Shown here: positions 4,068-48,628 of the stretch, in pieces | Layout: the number at the start of each line of letters is the position of its first letter | How positions within the stretch are numbered: the stretch's first letter is position 1 | Origin: Janthinobacterium sp. GW458P | GTDB lineage: Bacteria; Pseudomonadota; Gammaproteobacteria; Burkholderiales; Burkholderiaceae_D | DNA: 64,000 nt | Direction of reading: 5' to 3' | NCBI RefSeq assembly: GCF_002127585.1 | Contig: NZ_NEGZ01000015.1 | Span: forward strand, 1-64,000 | Notes under the pieces: model-generated | Told to the model about the DNA's origin: nothing | The model's input: the letters and a program-made list of their open reading frames with translations, nothing else | Database searches by the model: none | Translations under genes and position numbers: made by a program

Positions 4068-4166
4068 TCGGCAGGATAATATTGCATTCGAGAAATAAAT
4101 AGGCGAGAATGGGAAATCAGCCGCGCGTCACCGACGTCCGGCATTCGATGGCAAGCAAGGATGGGT

Positions 4167-4988: not shown

Positions 4989-4995
4989 GGCCGGC

Positions 4996-7820: not shown

Positions 7821-8136
7821 ACTGTTCTCCAATGATACATGCCACGCAAAAGTGGCCGAACGGCAATAGTACCCGGAAAGCAAGTTTTGCATAAGGCAAG
7901 CCTCTGACGCGGCGCAGCAGATAAATCCGGCCGCAACTTGACAGAACGCGCCTGAACTGCAACCATAACGCCATGAAATTTATCCCGTCACAACACGCCT
8001 GCTTGAATTGGTGGTCCCGCTCACTTTCGCGCGGCCACTCTATAGTGATGTGAATTTGATCCACGCCGCCTCGATCGGTGGCGTAACAGGCTCAGCCTGG
8101 ATCATCCCCGATGCAGGCGGCTCAAAAGGAAACTTG
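7821..8136. other. Divergent promoter region of the CocE-type gene and trpS
   Basis: This 316-bp non-coding stretch separates two divergent genes. TATAGT at 8041-8046 is a plausible -10 for trpS, though no good -35 lies at the right distance. AAAAGGA at about 8126-8132 is the trpS ribosome site. I saw no T-box, tRNA gene or convincing leader-peptide attenuator for trpS. Confidence 0.4.
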
Positions 8137-9213: not shown

Positions 9214-9334
9214 TCACCATTTACAAATAGCAAACTGATGCGCCTTGGCGGAGTCGGGTAAAATCCCGTCTTCGCCAGGGCGCAATGCATTTGGCACCGT
9301 GGCATCAGCAATCAGTAGAGAAGACAAACGCGCA

Positions 9335-10924: not shown

Positions 10925-10959
10925 CACCTTTCCACCCATCAACCTTGACTGGATGCCCG

Positions 10960-12201
10960 ATGCACAGGCTGACCGCCCTTTCTGACCTGTTACGGCATCT
11001 GCTGAAATGGCTGCTGCTGGCCGGTATGGTCGCGGTCCTGGCCGGCACAGCCTCGGCCGCCTTCCTGTACGCCCTGGACTGGGCCACGCGCACGCGCCTG
11101 GCGCACGCCTGGCTGATCTGGCTGCTGCCCGTGGCGGGCTTTGCCGTCGGCTGGCTGTATTTGCGCTACGGCAGCAGTGTCGAGGGCGGCGCGAACCTGC
11201 TCATCGATGAAATCCACGATCCGAAGAAAATCATCCCGCTGCGCATGGCGCCGCTGGTACTGGGCGGCACCGTCATCTCGCATGTGTTCGGCGCCTCCGT
11301 CGGGCGCGAAGGGACGGCCGTGCAGATGGGCGGCGCGCTGGCCGACCAGCTCACGCGCATGTTTCGCCTGAACAATGAAGACCGACGCATCATCCTGATG
11401 GCCGGCATCAGCGCCGGTTTTGCCTCCGTCTTCGGCACGCCGCTGGCGGGCGCCCTCTTCGGCCTGGAAGTGCTGGCCATCGGCCGCCTGCGCTATGAAG
11501 CCATGCTGCCCTGCCTGGCTGCCGCCGTCATCGCCGACCAGGTAGGCCTGCTGTGGGGCGTCCAGCATACGCATTACGCCGTACCCCTGATCCCCGCCCT
11601 CTCCGCCTGGACTTTATCCGCCATGGTGATCGCCGGCGTGCTGTTCGGCGTGACCGGCAAACTGTTTGCGCACGCCACGCACGGCTTGAGCGGCCTGATG
11701 AAGCGCTGCATCGGCTACGCCCCGCTGCGCCCGCTGGCGGGCGGCCTCGTCGTCGCCATCGCCGTGTGGCTGATGGGCACCGATAAATATATCGGCCTGG
11801 GCATTCCCACCATCGTCGACGCCCTCAAGGAGCCGCTGCCCGCATATGATTTCCTCGGCAAGATGGCGTTCACCATCGTCTCGCTGGGCACGGGATTCAA
11901 GGGCGGCGAAGTGACGCCCCTGTTCTTCATCGGCGCGACCCTGGGCAATGCGCTGGGGCCTGTGCTGCACCAGCCCGTCGCCCTGCTGGCCGCCGTCGGC
12001 TTCGTCGCCGTGTTTGCGGGAGCGGCCAACACGCCGATTGCCTCGACCCTGATGGCGATGGAACTGTTCGGCGCCGAGATCGGCGTGTACGCGGCCATCG
12101 CCTGCGTCGTGGCCTACCTGTTTTCCGGCCACGCGGGCATTTATAGGGCGCAGCGCAGCGGGCATGCCAAGCGCACCGCCCGCAAGGAACTTGAACCATG
12201 A
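10960..12201 (+). CDS. ClC-family anion/proton antiporter or channel
   Basis: An inner-membrane protein of 413 residues with ten or more helices. The ClC signature is GASVGREGTAVQMGG (near residue 110), with the gating glutamate in GREG. A second signature is GFKGGEVTPLFFIGATLGN (near 310). The usual GSGIP anion-binding motif is replaced by EGGANLLIDEIHD, a form I associate with the fluoride-type (CLC-F) branch; that subtype is a guess from memory of the family. It follows the decarboxylase by 35 bp and overlaps the next gene by four bases (ATGA). Confidence 0.82.
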   Translation: MHRLTALSDLLRHLLKWLLLAGMVAVLAGTASAAFLYALDWATRTRLAHAWLIWLLPVAGFAVGWLYLRYGSSVEGGANLLIDEIHDPKKIIPLRMAPLVLGGTVISHVFGASVGREGTAVQMGGALADQLTRMFRLNNEDRRIILMAGISAGFASVFGTPLAGALFGLEVLAIGRLRYEAMLPCLAAAVIADQVGLLWGVQHTHYAVPLIPALSAWTLSAMVIAGVLFGVTGKLFAHATHGLSGLMKRCIGYAPLRPLAGGLVVAIAVWLMGTDKYIGLGIPTIVDALKEPLPAYDFLGKMAFTIVSLGTGFKGGEVTPLFFIGATLGNALGPVLHQPVALLAAVGFVAVFAGAANTPIASTLMAMELFGAEIGVYAAIACVVAYLFSGHAGIYRAQRSGHAKRTARKELEP

Positions 12202-12929
12202 CCCAGAACATCTACGACAACGACGCCTTCTTCGCGGCCTACAGCCAGCTGCCCCGCTCGATTGGCGGCCTCGACAGCGCTCCCGAATGGCCGGCCCTGC
12301 GCGCCATGCTGCCCGACCTGCGGGGAAAAAGCGTGCTCGACCTGGGCTGCGGCTATGGCTGGTTCTGCCGCTGGGCGGCAGAACAGGGCGCGGCGCGGAT
12401 ATTGGGCGTGGACGTGTCGGAAAAGATGCTGGCGCAGGCAGGCGGCATGGGAGAACATGCAGCTGTCAGCTATGCCCGGCTTGATCTGGAACAACTGGCC
12501 TTGCCGCCCGCCAGCTATGATCTGATTTACAGCTCGCTCGCCTTCCACTACATCGAAGGTTTCGACGCCTTGCTGGCCGCCATCCGCCACGGCTTGAAGC
12601 CGGGCGGCAAGCTGGTGTTTTCCATCGAGCACCCGATCTTCATGGCGCCGCGCCAGCCAGGCTGGCTGACGGATGCGCAAGGCCGCAAGCGCTGGCCCGT
12701 CGACAGCTACCAGCAGCAAGGCCCGCGCGTGTCGGACTGGCTGGCACCCGGCGTCATCAAGCGGCACCGCACCCTGGGCACGACCATCAATGCGCTGCTG
12801 CAAGCGGGTTTGCAGCTGGACCATGTGGAAGAATGGGGCCCCACTGACGAGCAGATCGCGCAGCAGCCGGCCCTGGCGGAAGAGCGCGAACGGCCGATGC
12901 TGCTGCTGGTGGGGTGCGGCCTGCGCTAA
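12198..12929 (+). CDS. Class I SAM-dependent methyltransferase
   Basis: Cytoplasmic methyltransferase of 243 residues. Motif I is VLDLGCGYGWFC (about residues 47-58), the acidic residue after strand 2 is in GVDVSEKML, and the post-motif YDLIYSSLAFHYIEGF matches the Methyltransf_11 type. The substrate is not predictable. It starts inside the ClC stop codon (ATGA overlap), so it is translationally coupled to it. Its own stop overlaps the convergent JmjC gene stop by four bases. Confidence 0.85.
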   Translation: MTQNIYDNDAFFAAYSQLPRSIGGLDSAPEWPALRAMLPDLRGKSVLDLGCGYGWFCRWAAEQGAARILGVDVSEKMLAQAGGMGEHAAVSYARLDLEQLALPPASYDLIYSSLAFHYIEGFDALLAAIRHGLKPGGKLVFSIEHPIFMAPRQPGWLTDAQGRKRWPVDSYQQQGPRVSDWLAPGVIKRHRTLGTTINALLQAGLQLDHVEEWGPTDEQIAQQPALAEERERPMLLLVGCGLR

Positions 12930-13876
12930 TCCCCTTGGGGCCGCAGCGCCGCCCAGCCCTGCAAGGCCAGCGGCACGGCCCTGGCCCAGCGGTTCGACGA
13001 CAGCGAAAACGTCAGCGCGCGCACCTGGTGATACCAGCCGGCGGGCACGTACAGCATGTCGCCCGGCTCGACGATGCATTCAATCATGGTCGCCTGGCGC
13101 GCCAGGGGGAAGCGCTCGAAATCGGGCGCTTCCGGGTCGAAGGGCGAACCGAACAGGATGGCGTTCGCCTCGCTCGGATACAGGAAGGCGTCATGGTGCG
13201 GCGGCGACAAAAAGATGCGCTTGCGGCCCCACACCTGGGCGAAGATATTGTCGTCGTAATCGCAATGCAAAGGCGTCACCGTGCCGGCCGGCCCCACCCA
13301 GAAGCGCGGCGGGCCCATCTTGTCGAAATACGTGGGCCAGTGGCACAAACGGTTCAGCTCGCGCAATTCCAGGTTGCCCAGGTACGGCGGCAGCGCGTAC
13401 TCGCCCTCGGCCACCAGATCCAGGTATTGCCCCATCGACATGTCCTGCATGGCGCGGTCGGCCGCGAACGCCGTGTTGATGTAGTCGCCCACCCGCGCCC
13501 GCACGGGCACGTGGCTGAACTGCTCGCGCAAGACCTCCGGCCCCAGGGCCGACAAGGGCCAGCGCTGCACCAGGCCGCGCATCAGGAATGGCAAGCCCAG
13601 CGCGGCGCGCGCGCGAAAGGCGGCCGCATCCAGCATGGCCAGGCGCGGCACTTCGGCGATGGCGGGCAGGCCGCGTGCCGCCTGCCTGATGGCCTTGCGC
13701 ATGGCGTCGATGGACGTGACGCCGCGCACCAGCGCATCCTTGTGCTCGCGCGCCTGCTTGCGGGCCAGGGCCGCTTCAGGCGAACTGAATTCGGCTGGCG
13801 GGCGCGGCGGCAGCGCACGCGGCGCCGCCGATGGCGGCGTTTGCCCGGAGGCAAGTGAATTTTTCTTTACTGACAT
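12926..13876 (-). CDS. Cupin-like JmjC-domain Fe(II)/2-oxoglutarate oxygenase
   Basis: Putative hydroxylase of 316 residues. The metal triad is readable: H204 and D206 in TPLHCDYDDN and H283 in WYHQVR, the typical HxD...H of the Cupin_8/JmjC fold. GDYINTAFAADRAMQDMSMGQYL precedes it, as in bacterial FIH-like oxygenases, and PGDMLYVPAGWYHQV lies in the last strand region. The first 80 residues are Ala/Pro-rich with no known domain. The substrate (protein side chain or small molecule) is unknown. Confidence 0.85.
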   Translation of the reverse strand: MSVKKNSLASGQTPPSAAPRALPPRPPAEFSSPEAALARKQAREHKDALVRGVTSIDAMRKAIRQAARGLPAIAEVPRLAMLDAAAFRARAALGLPFLMRGLVQRWPLSALGPEVLREQFSHVPVRARVGDYINTAFAADRAMQDMSMGQYLDLVAEGEYALPPYLGNLELRELNRLCHWPTYFDKMGPPRFWVGPAGTVTPLHCDYDDNIFAQVWGRKRIFLSPPHHDAFLYPSEANAILFGSPFDPEAPDFERFPLARQATMIECIVEPGDMLYVPAGWYHQVRALTFSLSSNRWARAVPLALQGWAALRPQGD

Positions 13877-37445: not shown

Positions 37446-40400
37446 ATGAACGCTGACGCCACCCCGGAAACGCAACTCGACACCCAACTGGCGCTGGCAC
37501 TTGAAGCGCACCAGGCTGGCCGCCTGGAAGAGGCGGAAGACCTGTATGTCGGCATCCTGCAAGAACAGCCCTACCATGCCATCGCCAACCACAATATGGG
37601 TTTGCTGGCCGGCCAGGTCGGCCAGTTCCGGGCAGGACTGCCGTATCTGCGCAAGGCGCTGTCGGTCAATCCCGACGAAGGCCAGTTCTGGCTGTCGCTT
37701 GCCGAGGGCCTGCTCAAGGCCGGCGAACGGGACGAAGCGCTCGACATCATCGACACGGCCATCGGCCGCGGCCTCGATAACGACCAGGCGCACGCCTTGC
37801 GCGCGCGCATAGCCGCGGCGATTGCCGCCGCGCCGACGGCCGACGAATGCCAGCACGTGGTGGCGCTGTACCAGGCGGCACGGTACGCGGAAATGGAAAC
37901 GGCCACCCGGGCGCTGATCGCCCGCTACCCCACCTCCGATTTTGCCTGGAGCGTGCTCGGCACCGTCCTGCAGGCGCAGGGCAAGGACGCCCTCGACGCG
38001 CTGCAAACCACGGTGCAGCTCACCCCGTATGACGCCGAAGCCCATTGCAACCTGGCCAATGCGTGGCAGGCGCGCGGGGAACACGCGCAGGCGGTCCAGT
38101 CCTACCAGCAGGCGCTGCAGTTCAATCCGGCGTTCGCCGAGGCGCACAGCAACCTGGGCGGCGCCCTGCAGGCGCTCGGCGCCCTGGCGGAAGCGGAAGC
38201 ATCCTACCTGCGGGCCATTGCCCTGCGGCCCGACTATGGCATGGCGCACTTTAACCTGGGCAACACACGCAAGGCGCGTGGCGATCTCGACGGCGCCGTC
38301 AGCGCCTACCACGCCGCCCTGGCAAGCATGCCCGGCGACGCCGAAGTGCTCTGCAATCTGGGCAACGCCCTGCAGGGGCTGGAGCGCAATGAAGAAGCGG
38401 CCGACAGCTATCGCCGCGCGCTGGCGCTCGATCCCCGGCTGGTGATGGCGCACAGCAACCTCGGCGCCGCGCTACAGAATCTGGAACAGTACCCGCAGGC
38501 GGAAGCGAGCTACCGCAGCGCCTTGTCGCTGGCGCCGCGCCATGCGGACCTGTGGAATGGCCTGGGCAACAGCCTGCAGTCGCAGCAGCGCCTCGACGAG
38601 GCCGCCGATGCCTATCGCCAGGCGCTGGCCGTGCAGCCCGACTATTCCCAGGCCCAGTCCAACCTGGGCGGCGTGCTGGTGAGCCTGGGCGAATTCGATG
38701 CGGCGATCGCCAGCTATCGCCGGGCCCTGCAGCTGCAGCCGGACAGCGCCGACGCGCACACCCAGCTGGGCCTGGGCCTGCAATCGGTCGGCGAACTCGA
38801 CGAAGCACTGGCCCTGCACCAGCGCGCGGTACAGCTGGCGCCCGACAAGCTGCAGGCGCACACCTGCCTCGGACATTGCCTCAAGCAAATGCGCCGCTTT
38901 GAGGAAGCGCAAGTCGCTTACCGGCAAGCGCTCGCGCTGGCGCCCGATGTCGCCAACCTGCACAATGACCTGGCCATCGCCGTGCAGGACGCCGGCGATT
39001 ATCCCGAGGCGATCCGCATCTACCAGCACGCGCTGGAACTGGACCCGCGCTCATCGCTGATCCATTGCAACCTGAGCGTGGCGTTCGAGGATAGCGGCCA
39101 GTCGGAGCGGGCGCTCGAGTATCTGCAGCGCGCGCGCGAAATCGCGCCCGACTCCAGCCGCGTGCACTTTACGATGGGCAATTGCCTGCGCTCGCTGAAG
39201 CGCTACGACGAAGCGCTGGCCAGCTATGCGCGCTCGCTGGAAATCCAGGACGACTTCATCGGCTCCCATTTGAACACGTGCGCGACCTACAGCGAGATGG
39301 GCCGCACCGACGACGCCGTCCAGGCCTGCCGCACGGCCCTGGCCAGGTATCCGCAGTACGATGAGGTCTACAGCAACATGCTGTTCGGCCTGTCACACAT
39401 GCATGCCGACGACCCCGCCGCCATGGTGGCCGACCATTTCGGCTTCGGTGAACGCTACGAAACGCCGCTGCGCGCCGCATGGCAGCCGCATGCGAACGAG
39501 CGCGACCCGCAGCGCCAGTTGAAGATCGGCCTGGTCTCGGGCGACTTCTGCAACCACGCCGTGGCGCATTTCATTACGCCCCTGCTTGAAGAACTGGTGA
39601 CGATGCCGCAGTTTGCGCTGTATGCGTACTACAACAATAGCCGCGTCGACAACGTCACCATGCGCATCGCGCAACTGCTGCCCAACTGGCTGCCAGTGAC
39701 CCACCTGAGCCAGGAAAAGCTGGCCGAGCGCATCCGCGCCGACGGCATCGACATCCTGATCGACCTGTCCGGGCACACGGCCAAGAATTGCCTGCTGGCC
39801 TTTGCCCGCAAGCCGGCGCCCATACAGATGAGCTGGATCGGCTATCCGCTGACCACGGGCCTGCAGGCCATGGATTATTATCTGGGCGACCGCCATTTCT
39901 CGCCGCCGGAGACATTCGCCAGCCATTTCACGGAAAAACTGATACTGCTGCCGACCATCGCCCCGTTCCTGCCATCGGAGCATGCGGACGGCATCCTGCC
40001 GGCGCCGGTGCTGAAGAACAAATACCTGACGTTCGGCAGCTTCAACCGCCCTAACAAGCTCAACCGCCAAACCATCGCGCGCTGGGCCAAGGTCTTGCGC
40101 GCCATCCCGGACGCCAGGATGCTGCTGGCGGCCATGCCGGCGCCCGGTCCCCACCCCGGCCTGACGGCGTGGTTCGCCGAAGAAGGCATCAGCGCCGACC
40201 GCCTGATCTTCGAGCCGCGCGCCAACATGGCCAACTTCCTGGCCATGCATCACCGCGTCGACATCTGCCTCGATACGGCGCCGTACGGCGGCGGCACCAC
40301 CACCTTCCACGGCTTGTGGATGGGCGTGCCCACCCTTACCGTTGCCGGACCGACAGTACCAAGCCGCGCCGGCACCTCGATACTGCGCCATGTGCAGCTG

Positions 40401-40658
40401 GAGGAATTCATCGCCCGCGACGACGAGGAATTTGTCAGCAAGGCCCTGTACATGGCGGCCAACCCCATGCTGCTGGGCGCCTACCGCTTCAGCACCCGGC
40501 ACCGCCTGGCGCAAACGGCGCTGGGCCAGCCGAAGTTGATTGCGGAAGGCGTGGCCAACAGCCTGCGCCTGGCCTGGCAGCGCTGGTGCGCGGGCCTGCC
40601 GCCAGCGAGCTTCGATGCGCCGCTCGACAGCCAGTTGCCCGGGGAGCTGGCAGCATGA
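37446..40658 (+). CDS. TPR-GT41 protein O-glycosyltransferase (OGT/SPINDLY/FlmG-like)
   Basis: A 1070-residue cytoplasmic enzyme. Residues about 10-640 are consecutive 34-residue TPR units with the pattern A..NLG..L...G....A...Y..AL...P (for example AHSNLGGALQALG). Residues about 685-1055 form a GT41 catalytic region: KIGLVSGDFCNHAVAHF (about 692), LIDLSGHT, IQMSWIGYPLTTGL, then YGGGTTTFHGLWMGVP and SRAGTSILRHVQL near the donor site. In Caulobacter FlmG, a TPR-GT41-like protein, the TPR part binds flagellin and the GT part modifies it. By position upstream of flagellin genes this protein probably does the same. Its stop overlaps the next start (ATGA). Confidence 0.9.
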   Translation: MNADATPETQLDTQLALALEAHQAGRLEEAEDLYVGILQEQPYHAIANHNMGLLAGQVGQFRAGLPYLRKALSVNPDEGQFWLSLAEGLLKAGERDEALDIIDTAIGRGLDNDQAHALRARIAAAIAAAPTADECQHVVALYQAARYAEMETATRALIARYPTSDFAWSVLGTVLQAQGKDALDALQTTVQLTPYDAEAHCNLANAWQARGEHAQAVQSYQQALQFNPAFAEAHSNLGGALQALGALAEAEASYLRAIALRPDYGMAHFNLGNTRKARGDLDGAVSAYHAALASMPGDAEVLCNLGNALQGLERNEEAADSYRRALALDPRLVMAHSNLGAALQNLEQYPQAEASYRSALSLAPRHADLWNGLGNSLQSQQRLDEAADAYRQALAVQPDYSQAQSNLGGVLVSLGEFDAAIASYRRALQLQPDSADAHTQLGLGLQSVGELDEALALHQRAVQLAPDKLQAHTCLGHCLKQMRRFEEAQVAYRQALALAPDVANLHNDLAIAVQDAGDYPEAIRIYQHALELDPRSSLIHCNLSVAFEDSGQSERALEYLQRAREIAPDSSRVHFTMGNCLRSLKRYDEALASYARSLEIQDDFIGSHLNTCATYSEMGRTDDAVQACRTALARYPQYDEVYSNMLFGLSHMHADDPAAMVADHFGFGERYETPLRAAWQPHANERDPQRQLKIGLVSGDFCNHAVAHFITPLLEELVTMPQFALYAYYNNSRVDNVTMRIAQLLPNWLPVTHLSQEKLAERIRADGIDILIDLSGHTAKNCLLAFARKPAPIQMSWIGYPLTTGLQAMDYYLGDRHFSPPETFASHFTEKLILLPTIAPFLPSEHADGILPAPVLKNKYLTFGSFNRPNKLNRQTIARWAKVLRAIPDARMLLAAMPAPGPHPGLTAWFAEEGISADRLIFEPRANMANFLAMHHRVDICLDTAPYGGGTTTFHGLWMGVPTLTVAGPTVPSRAGTSILRHVQLEEFIARDDEEFVSKALYMAANPMLLGAYRFSTRHRLAQTALGQPKLIAEGVANSLRLAWQRWCAGLPPASFDAPLDSQLPGELAA

Positions 40659-41770
40659 GCGACTCCAAACCCATCTACGTCACCCAGCCGCTGCTGCCGG
40701 ACCTGCAGGATTTCCTGCCATACCTGGAAAGCATCTGGCAAAACAAGATCCTCACCAATGGCGGCCCCTTCCACCAGCAGCTGGAAAAAGCGCTGTGCGA
40801 CTACCTGGGCGTGCGGCATATCTGCCTGTTTACCAATGGAACGCTGGCATTGATGACGGCCTTGCAAGCCTTGCGCGTGAAGGGCGAAGTCATCACGACG
40901 CCGTATTCCTTCGTTGCCACGGCCCATTCGCTGCTGTGGAACGACATCAAGCCCGTCTTCGCCGACATCGATGCGCGCACGCTGAACCTCGATCCGGCGC
41001 GCATCGAGGCGGCCATCACGGCGCAGACCACGGCCATCATGCCCGTGCACTGCTATGGCCAGCCCTGCGATGTCGACGCCATCCAGAAGATTGCCGACAA
41101 TTATGATCTGAAGGTCATCTATGACGCCGCGCATGCGTTCGGCGTGCGCCATCAGGGCACAAGCGTGCTCAATTACGGCGACCTGTCCGTGATCAGCTTT
41201 CACGCGACAAAGATCTTCAACACCTTCGAAGGCGGCGCCATCGTCTGCCCGGACGCCAAGACCAAGCAGCGCATCGACCATCTGAAAAATTTCGGCTTTG
41301 TCGACGAAGTCACGGTCGTCGCCGCCGGCATCAATGGCAAGATGAGCGAAATCAATGCCGCCTTCGGCCTGCTGCAGCTGAAGGGCATCGACCAGGCGCG
41401 CCAGCAGCGGCGCGGCATCGACGCCCACTACCGCCAGCGCCTGGCCGGCATCGCCGGCATCACCTGCCTGGAAGCGGCCGATGCGGAAGCGGCCAATCAC
41501 GCCTACTTCCCCATCCTCGTCGGCCCCGAGTATCCGCTGGCGCGCGACGCCCTGTTCCAGCGGCTGCGCGATCACCAGATCTATGCGCGCCGCTATTTCT
41601 ACCCGCTCATCAGCGATTTCCCCATGTACCGCGGCATGCCGTCCGCCGTGCACGCCAATCTGCCGGTGGCGCGCCTGGCCGCGTCCCAGGTGATCTGCCT
41701 GCCGATCTACCCTGCCCTCGAGCTGTCGAGCGTGGATGCGATCACCGCCCTGATCGCCGGGCCTGCCTGA
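40655..41770 (+). CDS. DegT/DnrJ/EryC1/StrS-family sugar aminotransferase
   Basis: PLP-dependent transaminase of 371 residues acting on keto-nucleotide-sugars (VioA/PseC-like role). The cofactor lysine is K186 in SFHATKIFNTFEGGAI. Conserved FTNGTLALMTALQAL (about 54-68), PYSFVATAHS and DAAHAFGV are present. It probably makes a 4-amino-4,6-dideoxy sugar nucleotide. The 4,6-dehydratase that would supply the keto sugar is not in the window, so it must be encoded elsewhere (for example by rmlB). It overlaps the glycosyltransferase gene by four bases. Confidence 0.92.
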   Translation: MSDSKPIYVTQPLLPDLQDFLPYLESIWQNKILTNGGPFHQQLEKALCDYLGVRHICLFTNGTLALMTALQALRVKGEVITTPYSFVATAHSLLWNDIKPVFADIDARTLNLDPARIEAAITAQTTAIMPVHCYGQPCDVDAIQKIADNYDLKVIYDAAHAFGVRHQGTSVLNYGDLSVISFHATKIFNTFEGGAIVCPDAKTKQRIDHLKNFGFVDEVTVVAAGINGKMSEINAAFGLLQLKGIDQARQQRRGIDAHYRQRLAGIAGITCLEAADAEAANHAYFPILVGPEYPLARDALFQRLRDHQIYARRYFYPLISDFPMYRGMPSAVHANLPVARLAASQVICLPIYPALELSSVDAITALIAGPA

Positions 41771-41813
41771 GCGCCGCGCCCATCCCTATTGACCCAGAAC
41801 AAACGGCCACCGC

Positions 41814-42830
41814 ATGTCCCACTACGCCCACCTTACCGCGATCGCCTGCCACCTGCCGCAGGCGATCCTGACGAATGCCGCGCTGGAACAGGAATTCATC
41901 GACTGGCCGGCGCAAAAAATCCTCGACAAGACAGGCATTGCACAGCGTCATATCGCCGCGGCACATGAAACGGCCAGCGACCTGGCGTTCCATGCCGCGG
42001 AAAAACTGTTCGCCACGCATGACATCGCGCGCGGCGACATCGATTTCCTGATCCTGTGCACGCAGGCGCCCGACTACCTGCTGCCCAGCAGCGCCTGCGT
42101 GCTGCAGCAGCGGCTCGGCTTGCCGACCTCGTGCGGCGCGCTCGACATCAACCTCGGCTGTTCCGGCTACGTCTACGCGCTGGCCATGGCCAAGGGCCTG
42201 ATCGAGAGCGGCATCCGCAAGAAGGTGCTGCTGCTGACGGCCGACACCTATTCCAAGTACATCAACGCGCGCGACCGCAGCGTACGCACGCTGTTCGGCG
42301 ACGGCGCCGCCGCCAGCGTGATCGCCGGCGGCGCGCCCGAACTGGCGCTGGGACCGTTCGTCCTGGGCACGGACGGCAGCGGCGCGAACAACCTGATCGT
42401 GCCGGCCGGCGGCATGCGCACGGCCCGCAGCGCGGCCACGGCCGTCCCCGTCGAGGACGCGTCCGGCAACTGGCGCAGCCAGGACGACCTGTTCATGGAT
42501 GGCGCGCAGATCGTCCAGTTCACCTTGGGCGCCGTGCCGCGTACAATGCAGGAGCTGCTGGAGACGGCCGGCAAGACCCTCGATGACATCGATCACGTGA
42601 TTTTCCATCAGGCAAACAAATTCATGCTGGACGCCTTGCGCCGCAAAATCCGTATTCCGGAAGACAAATTTGTGATTGAAATCGATACTGTCGGCAATAC
42701 CGTCTCCTCGACCATTCCCATCGCCATCGCCCGCGCGCGCGCCTCGGGGCGCATCCGGCCGGGCGACACGGCCCTGCTGCTGGGCTTTGGCGTCGGCTAT
42801 TCCTGGGCCGGCACGCTGGCGCGACTGTAG
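41814..42830 (+). CDS. 3-oxoacyl-ACP synthase III (FabH-like), first copy
   Basis: Thiolase-fold condensing enzyme of 338 residues. The triad is intact: C116 (INLGCSGYVYAL), H265 (FHQANKFM) and N295 (VGNTVSST). It can start an acyl chain by condensing acyl-CoA with malonyl-ACP. In this operon, with its own ACP and a FabG-like reductase, it probably makes a short 3-hydroxyacyl group for a sugar amine rather than membrane lipid. It begins 43 bp after the aminotransferase. A second, clearly diverged FabH-like gene lies two genes later. Confidence 0.9.
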   Translation: MSHYAHLTAIACHLPQAILTNAALEQEFIDWPAQKILDKTGIAQRHIAAAHETASDLAFHAAEKLFATHDIARGDIDFLILCTQAPDYLLPSSACVLQQRLGLPTSCGALDINLGCSGYVYALAMAKGLIESGIRKKVLLLTADTYSKYINARDRSVRTLFGDGAAASVIAGGAPELALGPFVLGTDGSGANNLIVPAGGMRTARSAATAVPVEDASGNWRSQDDLFMDGAQIVQFTLGAVPRTMQELLETAGKTLDDIDHVIFHQANKFMLDALRRKIRIPEDKFVIEIDTVGNTVSSTIPIAIARARASGRIRPGDTALLLGFGVGYSWAGTLARL

Positions 42831-42874
42831 GCGTCCGCGCGCCTGCGCACTGAACTTCTCTGAAAGGAAACACA

Positions 42875-43093
42875 ATGCAAGAATTTTTCAACGGCATGGC
42901 CGACATTCTGGAAATCGACGCCGACAAGGTCGTGCCGGGCCTGAAACTGGGCGATTACGCCTGGGATTCGCTGGCCATCATTTCCACCATCGCCCTGGCC
43001 GACGAACTGTTCGATCAGATGCTCGAAGGCCAGGCCCTGGCCAATTGCGAAACCCTGGCCGACGTGCTGGCATTGATCGCCGTCAAGGTCTGA
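42875..43093 (+). CDS. Acyl carrier protein, operon-specific
   Basis: A small acidic four-helix protein of 72 residues. The phosphopantetheine attachment serine is S32 in YAWDSLAIIS, matching the DSL motif. It should carry the acyl intermediate between the two KAS III enzymes, the SDR and the acyltransferase. It is shorter and more diverged than housekeeping AcpP, and the absence of the usual fab neighbours supports a dedicated carrier. The ATG follows AAAGGAAAC. The next gene starts 2 bp after its stop. Confidence 0.9.
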   Translation: MQEFFNGMADILEIDADKVVPGLKLGDYAWDSLAIISTIALADELFDQMLEGQALANCETLADVLALIAVKV

Positions 43094-43095
43094 CC

Positions 43096-44151
43096 ATGTC
43101 CAGCCAGCGCCTGGAATCGGGACTGCCGTTCAGCACCGCCCATCTGGCCATGCGCGGCGTGGTGTGCGCGCTGCCGCGCACGCAGGTCCACAATGCCGAC
43201 CTGGCCGAGCGCTTCGGCGCCGAGGCCGTGGCCGACGTGAGCAAGATGATCGGCGTGCAGTCGCGCCGCCGCGCCGCCGACGGCCAGACGACGGCCGACC
43301 TGTGCCAGGCGGCGGCGCAAACCCTGCTCGACGACCTGGGCTGGGAGCGCGACAGCATCGACGCCCTGATCTTCATTTCGCAAACCCCCGATTACGTGCT
43401 GCCGGCCACCGCCTGCGCCCTGCATGGACGGCTGGGCCTGCACAAGGCCTGCGCCGCCTTCGACATCAACCTCGGCTGCTCTGCCTACGCGTATGGCCTG
43501 TGGCTGGCGGCGAAGATGCTCGATGGCCAGGCCATGTGCCGCATCCTGCTGCTGGTGGGCGACACCATCAGCAAGACCGTCGACGAGACCGACCGCGCCA
43601 CCGCGCTGCTGTTCGGCGACGCCGGCACGGCCACGGCGCTGGAATTCGATGCGGCGGCGGCGCCCGCCCATTTCATCGTCGGCAGCGACGGCGGCGGCGA
43701 ACGCCACCTGATGATGGCCGCCAGCGCCTGCCGCCCCTACGCGGGCGACGATGCGCGGCTGGCGCAGCGCGATCCGGCCAAGCTGTACATGGACGGCGGC
43801 GAAATCTTCAATTTCACGCTGAAAAGCATTCCGCCGCTGGTAGCGGACCTGCTGCGCCTGGCTGGCCGCACGAGCGACGAGGTCGATGCCTTCCTGTTTC
43901 ACCAGGCAAATACCTTCATGCTCAAGCACATTATCAAAAAAGCCAAATTGCCGGCCGGGCGCGCGCCGATCAACATGGACCGCTATGGCAACACGTCCAG
44001 CGCCTCCATCCCCCTGTTGATCGCCGACAGCCTGGGGGCGGCGGCACAGGGCCAGACCATCGCCATGTTCGGCTTTGGCGTCGGCTACTCCTGGTCGGCG
44101 GCCGTGCTGGGCCTGCAATCGCTGACCGTCAACCGCCTTATCGAAGTCTGA
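43096..44151 (+). CDS. 3-oxoacyl-ACP synthase III (FabH-like), second copy
   Basis: A 351-residue paralogue of the first KAS III. Catalytic residues are C128 (NLGCSAYAYGL), H269 (FHQANTFM) and N299 (YGNTSSASIP), so it should be active. It differs from the first copy in its N-terminus and substrate-pocket region, so the two may act in consecutive steps, or one may act as an acyltransferase. The gene is 2 bp after the ACP gene and 3 bp before the SDR gene. Confidence 0.9.
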   Translation: MSSQRLESGLPFSTAHLAMRGVVCALPRTQVHNADLAERFGAEAVADVSKMIGVQSRRRAADGQTTADLCQAAAQTLLDDLGWERDSIDALIFISQTPDYVLPATACALHGRLGLHKACAAFDINLGCSAYAYGLWLAAKMLDGQAMCRILLLVGDTISKTVDETDRATALLFGDAGTATALEFDAAAAPAHFIVGSDGGGERHLMMAASACRPYAGDDARLAQRDPAKLYMDGGEIFNFTLKSIPPLVADLLRLAGRTSDEVDAFLFHQANTFMLKHIIKKAKLPAGRAPINMDRYGNTSSASIPLLIADSLGAAAQGQTIAMFGFGVGYSWSAAVLGLQSLTVNRLIEV

Positions 44152-44154
44152 ACC

Positions 44155-44913
44155 ATGATCTTTCAACCCGACATGCTGGCCGGCCAGCGCATCCTCGTCA
44201 CCGGCGCCTCGTCCGGCATCGGCCGCGACACGGCCCTGCTGCTGGCGCGCTGCGGCGCGCAACTGCTGATCAGCGGACGCGACCCGGCTCGCCTGGAGCA
44301 AACCCTGCAGGCGCTTGACGGCAGCGGCCACCGCGCCGAAGTGCTCGAACTCGACGGCGGCGACCACATCGTCGACTTCCTCAGGCAGGCCACGCAGGAG
44401 GCGCCCCTGAGCGGCATCTTCCATGCGGCCGGCATCGAGTTATTGCGCCCGGTCAAATTGTCCAAGGCCCAGCAGTTTGACGAGGTCTTCGCCTCCAGCG
44501 TCAAGACGGCGCTGGCGCTGGCGCGCGGCGCCGCCCTGCGCGGCGTGCTCAGCGATGGCGCGGCCCTGCTCTTCATGTCTTCCGTGGCGGGCCAGAGCGG
44601 CCAGTCCGGCATGAGCGTGTATTCGGCCGCCAAGGCCGCCATCGACGGCCTGGTGCGCGCCCTGGCCGTGGAACTGGCGCCGCGCGGCATGCGCGTCAAC
44701 AGCATTGCCGCCGGCGCCGTCGAAACGGAAATGCACGCGCGCCTGAGCCGCGGCTTGCCGGACGAGGCCATGCGCGCCTACGCGGAACGCCATCCGCTCG
44801 GCTTCGGCCGCAGCAGCGACATCGCGCAGACGGCGGCCTTTTTGCTGTCGCCGGCGGCCCGCTGGGTCAGCGGCGCCACCTGGGCCGTCGACGGCGGCTA
44901 CCTGGCCCGTTAG
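44155..44913 (+). CDS. FabG-like short-chain dehydrogenase
   Basis: An NAD(P)H-dependent reductase of 252 residues. It shows the cofactor motif [17 protein letters not shown] (about 16-32), catalytic [16 protein letters not shown] (Tyr about 157), [11 protein letters not shown] before it, and the C-terminal [14 protein letters not shown]. By position between KAS III/ACP and the acyltransferase it should reduce the 3-ketoacyl-ACP to 3-hydroxyacyl-ACP. A sugar-reducing role is an alternative. Confidence 0.88.
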
Positions 44914-44921
44914 GAGTGCCC

Positions 44922-45554
44922 ATGCAAACCATCCTCATCGTCGGCGCCGGACGCTTCGCCCGAGAATTGCTGTGCTGGCTGGAAGACAGCCTCGACCCTG
45001 CTACCGCCCGCATCGGCGGCCTGCTCGACGACACGCTGCCGCCCTCGGCCGTGCTCGACGCCGACTACCCGTATCCCGTGCTGGGCAGCATCGGCGGCTA
45101 CCAGCCGGCGCCCGGCGAAGCGCTGCTGCTGGCCATCGGCGCGCCGAAAGCCCGGCTGGAAGTGGCGCAGATGCTGGCCGCGCGCGGCGCCCGCTTCCAT
45201 ACCCTGATCCACCCCAGCGCCATTGTCGCGCGCACGGCCCGCATCGGCCAGGGCGCCGTCGTCTGCCCGTTCGCCCTCGTCTCGGCAGGCAGCGAACTGG
45301 GCGACTATGTCACCATCAACAGCTACGCCAGCGTCGGCCATGATGCAGTGCTGGAACCGGGCTGCACGCTCAGTTCGCACGTCGACATCACGGGCGGCGT
45401 GCATCTGGGCCAGGCCGTCATGGTCGGCTCGGGCGCATCCATCCTGCCGCGCGTGCGCATCGGCGCCGGCGCCACCGTGGGCGCCGGCGCCGTCGTCATG
45501 CGCCGCGTGGCCGCCGGCGCCACCGTTTACGCTCCACCCGCAAAGACATTATGA
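44922..45554 (+). CDS. PglD/NeuD-like left-handed beta-helix acyltransferase
   Basis: A 210-residue transferase of the sugar N/O-acyltransferase type. The N-terminal Rossmann-like part (ILIVGAGRFARELLCWLED) is followed from about residue 90 by hexapeptide repeats (GQGAVVCPFALVSAGSELGDY, GSGASILPRVRIG). The catalytic His is probably in INSYASVGHDAVL. It would attach an acyl group to the sugar amine made by the aminotransferase; here the donor may be the operon's acyl-ACP rather than acetyl-CoA (inference). ATG 44922 is chosen because TAGGAG lies five bases before it; a GTG at 44916 overlaps that site. Confidence 0.88.
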   Translation: MQTILIVGAGRFARELLCWLEDSLDPATARIGGLLDDTLPPSAVLDADYPYPVLGSIGGYQPAPGEALLLAIGAPKARLEVAQMLAARGARFHTLIHPSAIVARTARIGQGAVVCPFALVSAGSELGDYVTINSYASVGHDAVLEPGCTLSSHVDITGGVHLGQAVMVGSGASILPRVRIGAGATVGAGAVVMRRVAAGATVYAPPAKTL

Positions 45555-46570
45555 CCATCCACTCCGAAACGCGGCAGCTGCGCGACCAGTTCTGGCACCT
45601 GCTGTGCCACCGCAGCGAATTGCCCTCCAGCGGCGACTATCTGAAGCTCGACTGGCTGGGCGAGGAAGTGGTCGTCTACAACGACCAGGGCGAGCTGATC
45701 GCCTTCGACAACCTGTGTCCGCACCGCGGCACGCGCTTCTTCACTGCAAAACGCGGCAATGCGCCGCTGGCCTGCCCCTACCATGGCTGGGCCTACCGGG
45801 CCGGCGCCATGCACATCCCCTGCCGCGAACGCTACGCCCCGGCCGAGCTGGACAACGCCCGCCTGCAGGTGCTGCAGCTGGACTGGTGCGCCGATTTCCT
45901 GTTCGCCTCGCCACGGCCGCGCCTGTCGCTCGGCGCGCAGCTGGGCGAGACGCAGGCCCTGCTGGAAAACATGTCCTTCAACGTCGACGGCCTGGGCGAT
46001 TTCAACGCCTATGACTTCGAGTGCGACTGGCGCATCGCGCTGGAAAATGCGCTCGAACCGCTGCACGTGCCGTTCGTGCACCCGGAATCGCTGGCGCAAC
46101 TGCAACTGGGCGACGGCGAGAACCGCTTCACGGAGTGGACTTCCGTGTGGCAAGCCCCGCTGGGCAATGCGGGCATGGCCAGGAAGCTGCGCTCCGTCAA
46201 ACGCCTGTTCCAGCTCGACAGCCAGTTCGAGGGTTACCAGAGCCTGTACCTGTTCCCGTTTACCATGCTCTCGTCGACATTTTCGTATTCGTATTCGCTG
46301 CAGCATTTCTTTCCGTCAACGCAAGCGCAGCGCACGCATTTCTCCAGCCGCCTGCTCAAGGCCGCGACCAAACCCGCCGCCAGCGCCACGCTGCAGGGCT
46401 TTTTCGACTCGAGCGCGCAGATGAACCGCCAGGTGTTCGAGGAAGACCATGCCATCTGCAAGCGCATCGCCGTCCAGGCGGCCGACAGTGCGCGCTTCAA
46501 GGTCCTTTCCAGCGACGAGGCAAAGATCGCGCATTTCCGGGCCTGCATCGTGGCGGCAAGCCGGTCCTAG
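45551..46570 (+). CDS. Rieske-type aromatic-ring-hydroxylating-like oxygenase
   Basis: A 339-residue non-haem iron oxygenase. Rieske ligands are C56-H58 (CPHRG) and C75-H78 (CPYHGW). The mononuclear iron site follows in NALEPLHVPFVHPESL (about 168-183). It has the length of an oxygenase alpha subunit, and no ferredoxin or reductase gene is beside it. In this operon it may hydroxylate or oxidise the acyl or sugar part of the glycan. It overlaps the acyltransferase gene by four bases and is the last gene of the operon. Confidence 0.9.
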   Translation: MTIHSETRQLRDQFWHLLCHRSELPSSGDYLKLDWLGEEVVVYNDQGELIAFDNLCPHRGTRFFTAKRGNAPLACPYHGWAYRAGAMHIPCRERYAPAELDNARLQVLQLDWCADFLFASPRPRLSLGAQLGETQALLENMSFNVDGLGDFNAYDFECDWRIALENALEPLHVPFVHPESLAQLQLGDGENRFTEWTSVWQAPLGNAGMARKLRSVKRLFQLDSQFEGYQSLYLFPFTMLSSTFSYSYSLQHFFPSTQAQRTHFSSRLLKAATKPAASATLQGFFDSSAQMNRQVFEEDHAICKRIAVQAADSARFKVLSSDEAKIAHFRACIVAASRS

Positions 46571-46572
46571 GG

Positions 46573-46595
46573 GGCTGGCGGCGAGTCCGCCGGCC
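46573..46595 (+). terminator. GC-rich hairpin at the end of the glycosylation operon
   Basis: GGCTGGCGG and CCGCCGGCC form a 9-bp stem (one G-T) around CGAGT, three bases after the Rieske gene stop. A T-run (CTTTTTT) begins about 10 bases later. It is a probable but imperfect terminator separating the operon from the flagellin gene. Confidence 0.5.
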
Positions 46596-46602
46596 GATGT
46601 GA

Positions 46603-46675
46603 AACTTTTTTAAAAATAATTTTAAAAAATTTCCACAAAGCATTTAATAAGCTTATGCGTACGGTCGTCTTGTAC
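46603..46675 (+). promoter_or_regulatory. AT-rich upstream region and shared motif before the first flagellin gene
   Basis: Bases 46603-46655 are strongly A/T-rich with A-tracts, as in an UP element or regulator-bending site. Bases 46663-46675 read GGTCGTCTTGTAC, nearly identical to GGTCGCCTTGTAC at 62381-62393 upstream of fliD. No canonical sigma-28 flagellin promoter (TAAA...GCCGATAA) was found. A shared promoter or operator is inference. Confidence 0.4.
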
Positions 46676-46734
46676 TTGGGAGAGCACAAAGAACCGTTGC
46701 TCCGGACTGAACCCAACAAACCAGGAGTTACACC

Positions 46735-47586
46735 ATGCTGAGCCTTCACACTAACAACGCTGCACTGTCCGCACAAAATTCGATCACCCGCACCCAAAAC
46801 CAACTGTCGACCTCGATGACCCGCCTGAGCACCGGCTTCCGCATCAACTCGGCAATGGATGACGCAGCAGGCTTGCAAATCGCAACCCGCCTGAAAGCAC
46901 AAACCAGCGGCATGACCGTTGCAATGTCGAACACCCAGAACAGCACCTCGATGCTGCAAACGGCCGAAGGCGCGTTTGACGAAGTCACCAACATGCTGAT
47001 CCGCATGAAGGATCTGGCAACCCAGGCAGCCGATGCTTCGTCGGGCGCCAAAGACAAGACCGCCATGCAATCGGAATACGATGCACTGGGCCTGGAACTG
47101 TCGAACGTGATGAAAAACACCACCTTCGGCGGCAACAAGCTGCTGGTAGGCGGCACCTTGGCTTCGTCGATGACCTTCCAGATCGGTGCAAGCTCGACCG
47201 AAACGATGGCATTTGACGTTTCCGCCAAAATGACCAGCCTGACCGCATCGCTGGGTTCGGCTACCGCCAACTACGCTTCGGCCGCCACCGGCACCGAGCT
47301 GACCAGCGCCGCCAACGCCACCATCGCCCTGCTGGAAACGGCCATCGGCGACGTCGGCACCGTTCGCTCGGCACTGGGTGCTGCTGCCAACCGTCTGGAC
47401 CACGTCAACACCAACTTGTCCAACATCGCCACCAACACCAAAGCCGCTACCGGCCGCATCATGGACGTCGACTTCGCTACCGAAAGCTCGAACATGACGT
47501 CGTCGCAAATGCTGCTGCAAGCTGGCACCGCAATGTTGAAACAAAGCAACAGCATGTCCTCGATGGTCATGTCCCTGCTGCAATAA
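46735..47586 (+). CDS. fliC: Flagellin, major (first copy)
   Basis: Filament subunit of 283 residues, small, with only the conserved D0/D1 helices and a short central part; no D2/D3 domains. N-terminal LSLHTNNAALSAQNSI and LSTSMTRLSTGFRINSAMDD, and the C-terminal RIMDVDFATESSNMT and QMLLQAGTAMLKQ, are diagnostic. The ATG follows AGGAG. Codon use is visibly optimised (many AAC, ACC, CTG, TCG and GCA codons) compared with the second copy, suggesting high expression. The first gene after the glycosylation operon; probable glycan acceptor, with many Ser/Thr in the central part. Confidence 0.96.
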   Translation: MLSLHTNNAALSAQNSITRTQNQLSTSMTRLSTGFRINSAMDDAAGLQIATRLKAQTSGMTVAMSNTQNSTSMLQTAEGAFDEVTNMLIRMKDLATQAADASSGAKDKTAMQSEYDALGLELSNVMKNTTFGGNKLLVGGTLASSMTFQIGASSTETMAFDVSAKMTSLTASLGSATANYASAATGTELTSAANATIALLETAIGDVGTVRSALGAAANRLDHVNTNLSNIATNTKAATGRIMDVDFATESSNMTSSQMLLQAGTAMLKQSNSMSSMVMSLLQ

Positions 47587-47622
47587 TTTTTACCTGCATG
47601 GCCGCTCGCGGCCTGCCAGCAA

Positions 47623-47649
47623 AAACCAGGCCGCGGCCTGGTTTTTTTT
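47623..47649 (+). terminator. Intrinsic terminator of the first flagellin gene
   Basis: A self-complementary 20-base sequence AACCAGGCCGCGGCCTGGTT followed by a run of T residues, 37 bp after the stop codon. Confidence 0.93.
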
Positions 47650-47773
47650 CGTTCCGCGCAGCGGCAGGCGCGCCCGGAAAACTATTTCCCCGCAATCTTT
47701 AACGATGTGCTCCATGCGGTCGCCTGTTTGCTGGGTAGCCCCGTAAACTGCCGTCATCCACAGGAATCGCCGA

Positions 47774-48628
47774 GTGCTGAGCCTTCACACCAATATCGCC
47801 GCACTATCCGCACAGAATGCCGCCGCGCGGGCGCAAACGCGGCTGTCGACGTCGATGACGCGCCTGTCCACCGGCTTTCGCATCAATTCGGCCATGGACG
47901 ACGCGGCCGGCCTGCAAATCGCCACGCGGCTGCGGGCCCAGGCAAGCGGCATGGCCGTCGCCATGCGCAACACGCAAAACAGCACTTCGATGCTGCAAAC
48001 GGCCGAAGGCGCGTTTGATGAAGTGACCACCATGCTGATCCGCATGAAGGATCTGGCCACGCAGGCCGCCGATGCATCGTCGGGCGCCAAGGACAAGGTC
48101 GCCATGCAGGCCGAATACGACGCCCTGGGCCTGGAACTGGCCAACGTGATGAAAAACACTAGTTTCGGCGGCAACAAACTGCTGGCCGGCGGCACGCTGG
48201 CATCGGCCATGACGTTCCAGATCGGCGCCAGCCAAAGCGAGACGATGGCGTTCGACGTCTCGGGCAAGATGGGCAGCGTGCTGGCCTCGCTCGGCGCGGC
48301 CAGCGCCAACTTCGGCGCACCCGCCGCCGGCACCGAACTGACGGGCAGCGCCAACGCCACCATCGCCCTGCTGGAAACGGCCATCGATGATGTGGGCGGC
48401 GTGCGCTCGGCCCTGGGCGCCGCGGGCAACCGCCTCGACCACGTCAACAATAACCTGGCCAATATGGTCACCAACACCCGGGCCGCCATCGGCCGTATCA
48501 TGGATGTCGACTACGCGGCGGAAAGCGCGAACATGACGTCGGCGCAAATGCTGCTGCAAGCGAGCACGGCGATGCTCAAGCAAAGCCAGAGCATGCAGAA
48601 AATGATACTGTCCCTGTTACAGCCATGA
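47774..48628 (+). CDS. Flagellin, second copy
   Basis: A 284-residue flagellin very similar over its whole length to the first copy, including MDDAAGLQIATRL and MLQTAEGAFDEVT, and so a recent tandem duplicate. It starts with GTG (47774) behind a modest AGGAAT site, and its codons follow the GC-rich genomic norm rather than the optimised set. This suggests lower expression: a minor filament component or back-up. It has its own upstream region after the terminator of the first copy; no good sigma-28 promoter was found. Confidence 0.94.
   Translation: MLSLHTNIAALSAQNAAARAQTRLSTSMTRLSTGFRINSAMDDAAGLQIATRLRAQASGMAVAMRNTQNSTSMLQTAEGAFDEVTTMLIRMKDLATQAADASSGAKDKVAMQAEYDALGLELANVMKNTSFGGNKLLAGGTLASAMTFQIGASQSETMAFDVSGKMGSVLASLGAASANFGAPAAGTELTGSANATIALLETAIDDVGGVRSALGAAGNRLDHVNNNLANMVTNTRAAIGRIMDVDYAAESANMTSAQMLLQASTAMLKQSQSMQKMILSLLQP

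Follow-up and report, generated by a model that had tools for sequence, protein, structure and literature searches.

A predicted flagellin glycosylation operon of Janthinobacterium sp. GW458P with two ketoacyl synthases and a linked Rieske oxygenase

The window analysed here, a 64,000-nucleotide stretch of Janthinobacterium sp. GW458P DNA (contig NZ_NEGZ01000015.1, positions 1 to 64,000), carries an eight-gene operon (37446-46570, all on the + strand) directly upstream of two flagellin genes. From comparison with relatives the operon appears to be devoted to the glycosylation of flagellin with N-acylated 4-amino-4,6-dideoxyglucose (Qui4N, viosamine), a system of a known kind, to which a cassette with two type III ketoacyl-acyl carrier protein synthases (KAS III) and a cassette-linked Rieske oxygenase have been added. 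The full account, to which we give an even chance, is that of a flagellin O-glycosylation operon in which VioA- and VioB-type enzymes make acylated Qui4N, the two KAS III enzymes build a C6 dihydroxyacyl chain, the Rieske enzyme adds oxygen and a transferase with tetratricopeptide repeats (TPR) and a GT41 domain transfers the sugar, leaving a residue of 291.132 Da.

In the proposed route VioA would convert deoxythymidine diphosphate (dTDP)-4-keto-6-deoxyglucose, made by RmlA/RmlB encoded elsewhere in the genome, to dTDP-Qui4N. KAS III-1 and KAS III-2 would perform two successive condensations on the dedicated acyl carrier protein (ACP), and the short-chain dehydrogenase/reductase (SDR) would reduce each 3-keto group to yield 3,5-dihydroxyhexanoyl-ACP, whose acyl chain VioB would transfer to the 4-amino group. 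The Rieske protein, working as a monooxygenase, would add one oxygen, most likely on the acyl chain, before or after this transfer, and the TPR-GT41 protein would attach the sugar to Ser/Thr residues of flagellin before export. Comparison with related loci gives the pathway assignment good support; the single oxygenation and its position we infer.

Gene content and organization of the operon

The ten gene products were assigned to families using Pfam and NCBIfam profiles (Table 1). The initial annotation had described eight genes, with overlaps or tiny gaps, lying before two flagellin genes; all ten were found as placed, and the protein families named there were borne out. The successive gene distances are -4, 43, 44, 2, 3, 2, -4, 164 and 187 bases when the ATG at 43096 is used as the start of KAS III-2 (the TTG at 43090 is a possible alternative).

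Table 1. Features of the operon region, in window coordinates
Feature	Coordinates	Strand	Remarks
TPR-GT41 protein O-glycosyltransferase	37446..40658	+	1070 aa; Pfam TPR and Glyco_transf_41
VioA/DesI-like dTDP-4-keto-6-deoxyglucose 4-aminotransferase	40655..41770	+	DegT family
KAS III-1 (KAS1 type)	41814..42830	+	Pfam/NCBIfam; Cys-His-Asn present; outside KAS2 branch
Dedicated acyl carrier protein	42875..43093	+	Weak PP-binding match
KAS III-2 (KAS2 type)	43096..44151	+	Pfam/NCBIfam; inside KAS2 branch
SDR, predicted 3-oxoacyl-ACP reductase	44155..44913	+	Pfam/NCBIfam
PglD/VioB-type N-acyltransferase	44916..45554	+	TIGR03570 (NeuD/PglB/VioB hexapeptide), 181.9 bits, cut-off 160.8
Rieske non-haem iron oxygenase alpha subunit	45551..46570	+	Rieske and ring-hydroxylating alpha subunit domains
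Flagellin 1, predicted acceptor	46735..47586	+	283 aa; Flagellin_N and Flagellin_C
Flagellin 2, predicted acceptor	47774..48628	+	284 aa; Pfam/NCBIfam flagellin
Intrinsic-terminator-like hairpin 3' of flagellin 1	47621..47646	+	11-pair stem and T run

The first gene encodes a TPR array and a glycosyltransferase domain in one protein, beside flagellin, and its product is 40 % identical over 584 columns to a TPR protein encoded near a flagellin gene on plasmid pBGF3 of Burkholderia glumae. The aminotransferase scored best with the DesI model TIGR04427 (305.8 bits, under the cut-off of 650) and is 73 % identical to a B. glumae protein annotated as VioA. The ACP reached 19.8 bits in Pfam against a cut-off of 20.8 and contains the serine of the DSL motif. 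The best sequence matches in the PDB were 3gwa for KAS III-1 (414 bits), 4efi for KAS III-2 (380 bits) and 7txp, a VioB, for the N-acyltransferase (90 bits); 3gwa and 4efi presumably come from Burkholderia species.

All catalytic residues checked are kept in the window proteins, namely Cys-His-Asn of KAS III, Ser-Tyr-Lys of the SDR, the ACP serine, the VioB histidine, His and Lys of GT41, and the Rieske ligands. Relatives conserve the same residues (SDR, 47 of 47 rows; ACP serine, 26 of 26 aligned rows at >=50 bits; acyltransferase His, 46 of 46; GT41 His and Lys, 19 of 19 aligned rows at >=400 bits) except in one KAS1 row, in which Cys is gapped, and in single KAS2 rows, in which Cys or His is gapped or, once, Asn is replaced by Arg. 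Gene content, order, families and catalytic residues could be read directly; the enzyme reactions, chain length, oxidation and acceptor are what we infer from them.

Occurrence of the operon in related bacteria

In B. glumae BGR1, pBGF3 carries the genes in the order flagellin, fliD, fliT, TPR, vioA, KAS III, ACP, (KAS2), SDR, acetyltransferase, Rieske, and the seven proteins common to the window and pBGF3 that were compared are 40-73 % identical. The KAS2 region of this plasmid (L081, 17435-18536; L numbers are our locus labels) is split over two frames with no listed gene, through either sequencing error or decay.

In B. pseudomallei the comparison was based on locus tags, with BPSL3319 taken by us to be fliC. 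BPSL3319-3321 are named as flagella genes, and mutants of the BprRS system show raised expression of BPSL3323 (transferase), BPSL3324 and BPSL3326 (keto/oxoacyl-ACP synthases), BPSL3327 (short chain dehydrogenase) and BPSL3329 (Rieske) together with fliA, flhG, flhF and flhA (PMC4855414; here and below, statements about published work refer to the accessible text of the papers cited). Because of the gene order in B. glumae, BPSL3322, BPSL3325 and BPSL3328 would by analogy encode the TPR-GT41 protein, the ACP and the acyltransferase, respectively.

Within the family to which the source strain belongs, a Rieske match was found in 26 of 392 genomes at 1e-20 and in 20, the source included, at a stringency of at least 1e-100. 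All six cassette genes are present in each of the 19 other genomes with a close Rieske, and the order KAS1-ACP-KAS2-SDR-VioB-Rieske is kept in 18 of them; in L143 KAS1 is cut by the contig end, and in L146 the second KAS lies 3' of the Rieske gene. In the family of genome G119, presumed to be Burkholderiaceae, six of 319 genomes have the Rieske gene, all six in the same order. The recurrence of the cassette order in the family of the source strain exceeds chance. The locus L187 (9396-15533) of the G119 family looks like a decaying copy of the operon, with split Rieske and KAS1 genes and only short matches to VioA and GT41.

Among 25 fetched proteobacterial loci, in stretches of at most 20 kb (4.2 kb for L143), a GT41 gene was found in 16 and a flagellin gene in nine. 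The Rieske protein of Janthinobacterium sp. FT68W (Oxalobacteraceae) shares 92 % identity with the one in the window. The spread is patchy: among the genomes of the window's genus that were listed, at least six have a match and at least 20 have none. A query with B. glumae VioA gave no match in 32 genomes of the genus of G970, in a search run without a positive control.

The two KAS III enzymes

A tree of 94 KAS III proteins was built by a quick method, with Shimodaira-Hasegawa-like approximate likelihood ratio test (SH-aLRT) values as the sole support; it omits L006, L009, L011, L013, L016, L017, L140, L143, L151 and L187, rows below 140 bits and pieces shorter than 250 aa. The KAS2 side forms one branch of 51 rows (96 % SH-aLRT) that includes KAS III-2 of the window. 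KAS1 rows lie outside it in two groups, of 13 rows (99 %) and 26 rows (81 %), with L170 outside all of these. The KAS1 and KAS2 labels were assigned by best score, and the KAS2 side also takes in the late KAS of L146 and, from six Flavobacterium/Chryseobacterium loci, the second KAS, which in five cases had been labelled KAS1. With the exception of L146, two-KAS cassettes in the tree hold differing condensing enzymes, which fits two elongations, from acetyl to C4 and from C4 to C6. Both operon enzymes are separated from L188, the FabH-like protein of the source genome (99 %). The two enzymes are of two types and both stand apart from the FabH-like gene, as two distinct condensation steps would require.

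A comparable gene set has been connected with a C6 chain in Flavobacterium psychrophilum. The R1 group of its O-antigen was identified by NMR as 3,5-dihydroxyhexanoyl and was ascribed to wfpC (KAS), wfpD (ACP), wfpE (KAS), wfpF (ketoacyl-ACP reductase) and wfpG (PglD-type acyltransferase) (PMC6519341). The window has two KAS III genes, ACP, reductase and PglD-type acyltransferase contiguously, with the functions in the letter order of wfpC-G.

Several loci with one KAS, of the KAS2 side, and a distant Rieske were also seen (L159, L162-L166 and L168), and those of L162-L165 have two SDR matches and mostly a second hexapeptide match. They probably encode a related pathway for another acyl group.

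The Rieske oxygenase and its association with the acyl cassette

The CxH/CxxH ligands of the Rieske cluster and the two His and one Asp ligands of the iron are present in 47 of 47 rows; three residues ahead of the first iron His, 42 rows have Glu and five have Asp. The AlphaFold model (predicted template modelling score 0.83, mean predicted local distance difference test 79) has a Rieske oxygenase fold. Its top Foldseek match was the carnitine monooxygenase CntA, and the highest VIA Z scores, 28.7-29.7, were obtained with terephthalate dioxygenase (TPADO), salicylate 5-hydroxylase (NagG) and CntA, with toluene and naphthalene dioxygenases at 28. By sequence, the nearest solved structures scored at most 60.4 bits and were mostly ring-hydroxylating dioxygenases. 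The modelled fold does not reveal the substrate, and a role in aromatic catabolism was ruled out on the context of conserved acyl and sugar genes, not on the fold.

The linkage of this oxygenase to KAS III genes was observed directly. When the best 80 of 413 loci with Rieske similarity were taken (L140 was omitted as lying on the same contig as L001), a KAS III gene (>=140 bits) was found within 6 kb in 22 of the 23 close Rieske loci (>=100 bits against the window protein) compared with two of the 57 others, some loci ending at contig edges, where a missing KAS neighbour is not always a true absence. In a quick-method tree of 84 Rieske proteins, from which 41 of 125 rows had been dropped (every second row without a KAS neighbour, near-copies, short pieces and L187), a branch supported at 99 % SH-aLRT set apart all 53 KAS-neighboured proteins, together with L039, which has no such neighbour; ten of the loci came from a KAS-based search, so that in these a KAS is present by choice or nearly so. 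The KAS-linked side has several long branches, and its deepest forks are unsure. The KAS-based search, made with KAS2 in Burkholderiales, recovered loci from 12 other genomes, and nine of the 12 loci contain a distant Rieske (54-97 bits).

The genes accompanying the cassette differ between loci. VioA, GT41 and flagellin are its partners in the window, and enzymes of the PglF/PglE types are its partners in loci of the O-antigen type, while the acyl genes are constant. In L185, from Burkholderiales, the cassette lies beside genes for a PglF-like dehydratase family protein, a DegT aminotransferase, a glycosyltransferase and a UDP-N-acetylglucosamine 2-epimerase; in L002, from Flavobacterium, it occurs with a PglF-like enzyme, a bacterial sugar transferase and what look by eye like rml genes. 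Since it is the acyl genes that persist and the sugar genes that are exchanged, the Rieske enzyme more likely acts on the acyl chain, and on these comparisons the oxygenase would be a component of the acyl cassette and not something peculiar to flagellin.

In Flavobacterium the KAS1 gene was found at E<=1e-70 in 14 of 199 genomes. Besides L002, 13 loci were fetched, nine with a Rieske gene and four without (L210, L220, L218 and L211); L208, L213, L214 and L216 overlap L004, L007, L013 and L014, so these counts overlap the earlier ones. Of the four, L210 and L220 also lack a KAS2 match and L218 is a 5.5-kb contig. L211 has the order KAS1-ACP-KAS2-SDR-PglD-PglE-PglF with no Rieske gene in the locus (the remaining genome was not searched), and the six proteins it has in common with the Rieske-bearing L002 are 50-71 % identical. 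It therefore looks like a natural oxygenase-free version of the cassette. A further locus, L021 of Acetobacter lambici (3213-13477), encodes a Rieske protein that also falls on the KAS-linked side of the tree; KAS III and two SDR genes accompany it, an aminotransferase gene lies nearby, and the surroundings look by eye like a nonulosonic acid locus. In the literature, nothing in titles or abstract openings joined a Rieske gene to flagellin or to sugar acylation, most subscription papers being outside the search.

These comparisons changed the initial picture of the operon in part. The pathway suggested there, comprising an amino sugar with its own acyl machinery, N-acylation, an oxygenase and GT41, was retained, and the tie to flagellin was strengthened by the gene adjacency here and in relatives and by the joint rise with flagellar genes in the B. 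pseudomallei BprRS-system mutants. The combination does not stand alone: the order recurs on pBGF3, the B. pseudomallei tags fit and the cassette is present in 19 other genomes of the family, which likewise rules out an operon unique to the window. The pair of KAS III genes is no oddity, as it matches the published KAS-ACP-KAS-reductase-acyltransferase set ascribed to the C6 dihydroxyacyl R group of F. psychrophilum. The oxygenase keeps its place in the pathway, but as part of the acyl cassette, since Rieske genes also occur with this cassette in loci of the O-antigen type.

Sugar supply, the second flagellin locus and flanking signals

A sugar 4,6-dehydratase gene had been noted as missing from the window, and none of the 14 RmlB-model matches in the source genome indeed lies on the window contig (C56). 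Two full-score rmlB genes, above the cut-off, are located on contigs C102 and C1, and the open reading frame beside each reads by eye as rmlA. The genome is thus predicted to supply dTDP-4-keto-6-deoxyglucose via RmlA/RmlB away from the operon. On C1 (347978-349652) another KAS III gene adjoins an epimerase-type gene; its product is far from the operon KAS III enzymes in the tree, and the pair is possibly, we assume, an olefin-type locus.

Contig C85 carries a second TPR-GT41 gene (701 aa), divergent from the gene for a 485-aa flagellin (L100, 4608-9477) and followed by a gene of the nucleotide diphosphate-sugar epimerase family. Between the GT41 proteins of the window and of C85, identity is 30 % over 625 columns. 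This arrangement suggests one dedicated transferase per flagellin locus, and because the two proteins are only 30 % identical, the two loci may carry different sugars.

The window flagellins are short, and their nearest NCBIfam model is the lateral flagellin LafA, under its cut-off. Residues 140-200 contain 21 Ser/Thr in flagellin 1 and 14 in flagellin 2. The terminator scan that gave the hairpin listed in Table 1 found nine such sites overall in comparison to 9.9 in shuffled sequences. The pattern TAAA-N13-17-GCCGATA, a sigma-28-like consensus, had no match in the window (0.02 expected), and a sigma-70 scan of the window gave one site versus 1.6 in shuffles; accordingly, we propose no promoter.

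Predicted glycan mass and alternative explanations

The computed mass of a Qui4N residue carrying 3,5-dihydroxyhexanoyl is 275.137 Da, and one further oxygen gives C12H21NO7, 291.132 Da per site. A ketone variant would have 273.121 Da (289.116 Da with the oxygen) and a C4-chain variant 231.111 Da (247.106 Da with the oxygen). The FliC glycan of B. pseudomallei K96243 has been reported at 291.1 Da and also at 582.4 Da, as 2 x 291, and that of B. thailandensis flagellin at 300 or 342.1 Da (PMC3958885). Mutagenesis of the O-antigen cluster implicates this cluster in flagellar glycosylation (PMC3958885), which fits an rml-derived sugar. That the operon product is the 291-Da glycan of B. pseudomallei is a sharp but unproven prediction; a loss of CH2O2 could also, speculatively, reflect the departure of water and CO from a 2-hydroxyacyl group. 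The masses in B. thailandensis might contradict the account; there, fliC is BTH_I3196, fliD is BTH_I3197 and a csgG-like operon is BTH_I3204-3206 (PMC3966863). The six tag numbers between fliD and the csgG-like operon, too few for eight genes, fit the absence of the full operon after fliD, as judged from tag numbers rather than sequence, and such an absence would fit the different glycan of this species.

The preferred account has to be weighed against other uses of the same genes. It is unlikely, though plausible, that the target of the Rieske enzyme is the sugar ring and not the acyl chain, or that it introduces a ketone or double bond rather than a hydroxyl group. Rieske oxygenases are known for a wide range of reactions, and hydroxylation of the ring would yield an equal mass, but members of this subfamily keep KAS, SDR and acyltransferase genes as neighbours where the sugar genes vary, and a product with a ketone (273.1 Da) or a ketone plus oxygen (289.1 Da) would miss 291.1.

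Quite unlikely in our estimate is the same pathway with a C4 chain (3-hydroxybutyryl), in which the second KAS III would be redundant or part of a heterodimer and the Rieske enzyme would give dihydroxybutyryl. Such chains are found on flagellin sugars, as 3-hydroxybutanoyl viosamine in the one-KAS case of Pseudomonas syringae (PMC3927599, PMC3958885) and as Qui4N(3-OHBut) in B. cenocepacia (PMC12355684), and single-KAS loci with a distant Rieske exist. However, the two KAS III enzymes of the operon differ in type and both keep Cys-His-Asn, vioS is present once among the seven genes of the P. syringae island, published work links the two-KAS set to a C6 chain (PMC6519341), and 247.1 Da does not match the B. 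pseudomallei glycan.

A very improbable alternative is that the operon acts in the synthesis of O-antigen or some other surface glycan, its flagellin neighbours being incidental, as the O-antigen-type loci of Burkholderiales (L185) and Flavobacterium with the same cassette might suggest. Here, however, a TPR-GT41 gene accompanies the cassette, no flippase, polymerase or sugar-lipid transferase is encoded among the eight operon genes (the remaining window was not scanned for these), and the GT41 and flagellin counts among the fetched loci and the shared increase with flagellar genes seen in B. pseudomallei (PMC4855414) point to flagellin.

Some observations weigh against the flagellin operon with an oxygenated C6 chain. 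The function of wfpC-G is itself a proposal from gene content (PMC6519341). Single-KAS loci carry distant Rieskes too, so the pairing of Rieske and KAS is not tied to C6 chains alone, and three of the 12 KAS2-like Burkholderiales loci (L167, L169 and L170) have no Rieske match. No reductase partner for the oxygenase is encoded among the eight operon genes (the remaining genome was not searched for one). A second GT41 gene of the genome lies next to a different flagellin gene, so the window flagellins need not be the acceptor. The agreement of 291.13 Da with the reported 291.1 Da extends to one decimal alone, the published reading of the 291-Da glycan, in the part accessible, names other groups, and the residue of N-acetylneuraminic acid is also nominally 291 (291.095). 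The system is, moreover, rare, as in an even draw of 399 Burkholderiales genomes a Rieske at E<=1e-30 was found in the source genome only.

More generally, but with doubt outweighing confidence, we propose that a subfamily of Rieske oxygenases hydroxylates the short acyl chains of N-acylated surface sugars, that a portable KAS1-ACP-KAS2-SDR-acyltransferase-Rieske cassette serves flagellin or O-antigen across phyla, and that its flagellar form makes trihydroxyhexanoyl Qui4N (291.13 Da), identical with the 291-Da glycan of B. pseudomallei. This would give a Rieske subfamily a role in surface-sugar acylation, explain the recurrence of two KAS III genes in such loci and place one acyl cassette in both protein glycosylation and O-antigen-type pathways. 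It also offers one checkable figure for Betaproteobacteria with the operon, 291.132 Da per site, less 15.995 without the oxygenase, which covers one reported mass that the review PMC3958885, as far as accessible, describes in part.

Comparison with known systems

The nearest system is that of B. glumae pBGF3, which has the same genes in the same order beside flagellin as the window, with KAS2 split in that record. Five listed genes of B. pseudomallei BPSL3323-3329 agree with the window operon by position, according to their tags; in the accessible text of PMC4855414 the Burkholderia operon has no pathway name, and bpsl3323-3329 are placed under fatty acid biosynthesis.

The transferase resembles FlmG of Caulobacter in domain layout, with an N-terminal TPR part and a C-terminal glycosyltransferase that acts on flagellins, as is predicted here. 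The sugar of Caulobacter FlmG is a nonulosonate. Parts of FlmG have been tested against flagellins by two-hybrid assay.

F. psychrophilum wfpC-G encode the same five functions as the window cassette, the two sets being likened by function and order. The acyl group is carried there by bacillosamine in the O-antigen, and here it would be destined for flagellin. The main text of that paper, whose gene table sits in the supplement, nowhere uses the word Rieske (PMC6519341).

The viosamine island of P. syringae (vioA, vioS, acp, vioR, vioB, vioT, vioM) has, like the window, an aminotransferase, KAS III, ACP, reductase and acyltransferase, and makes dTDP-N-acyl-viosamine for flagellin. It differs in having one KAS III, a C4 chain and a methyltransferase, with no Rieske among the seven genes listed. 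VioT of P. syringae adds the modified viosamine to a rhamnosyl glycan, whereas the GT41 enzyme of the window would act on the protein.

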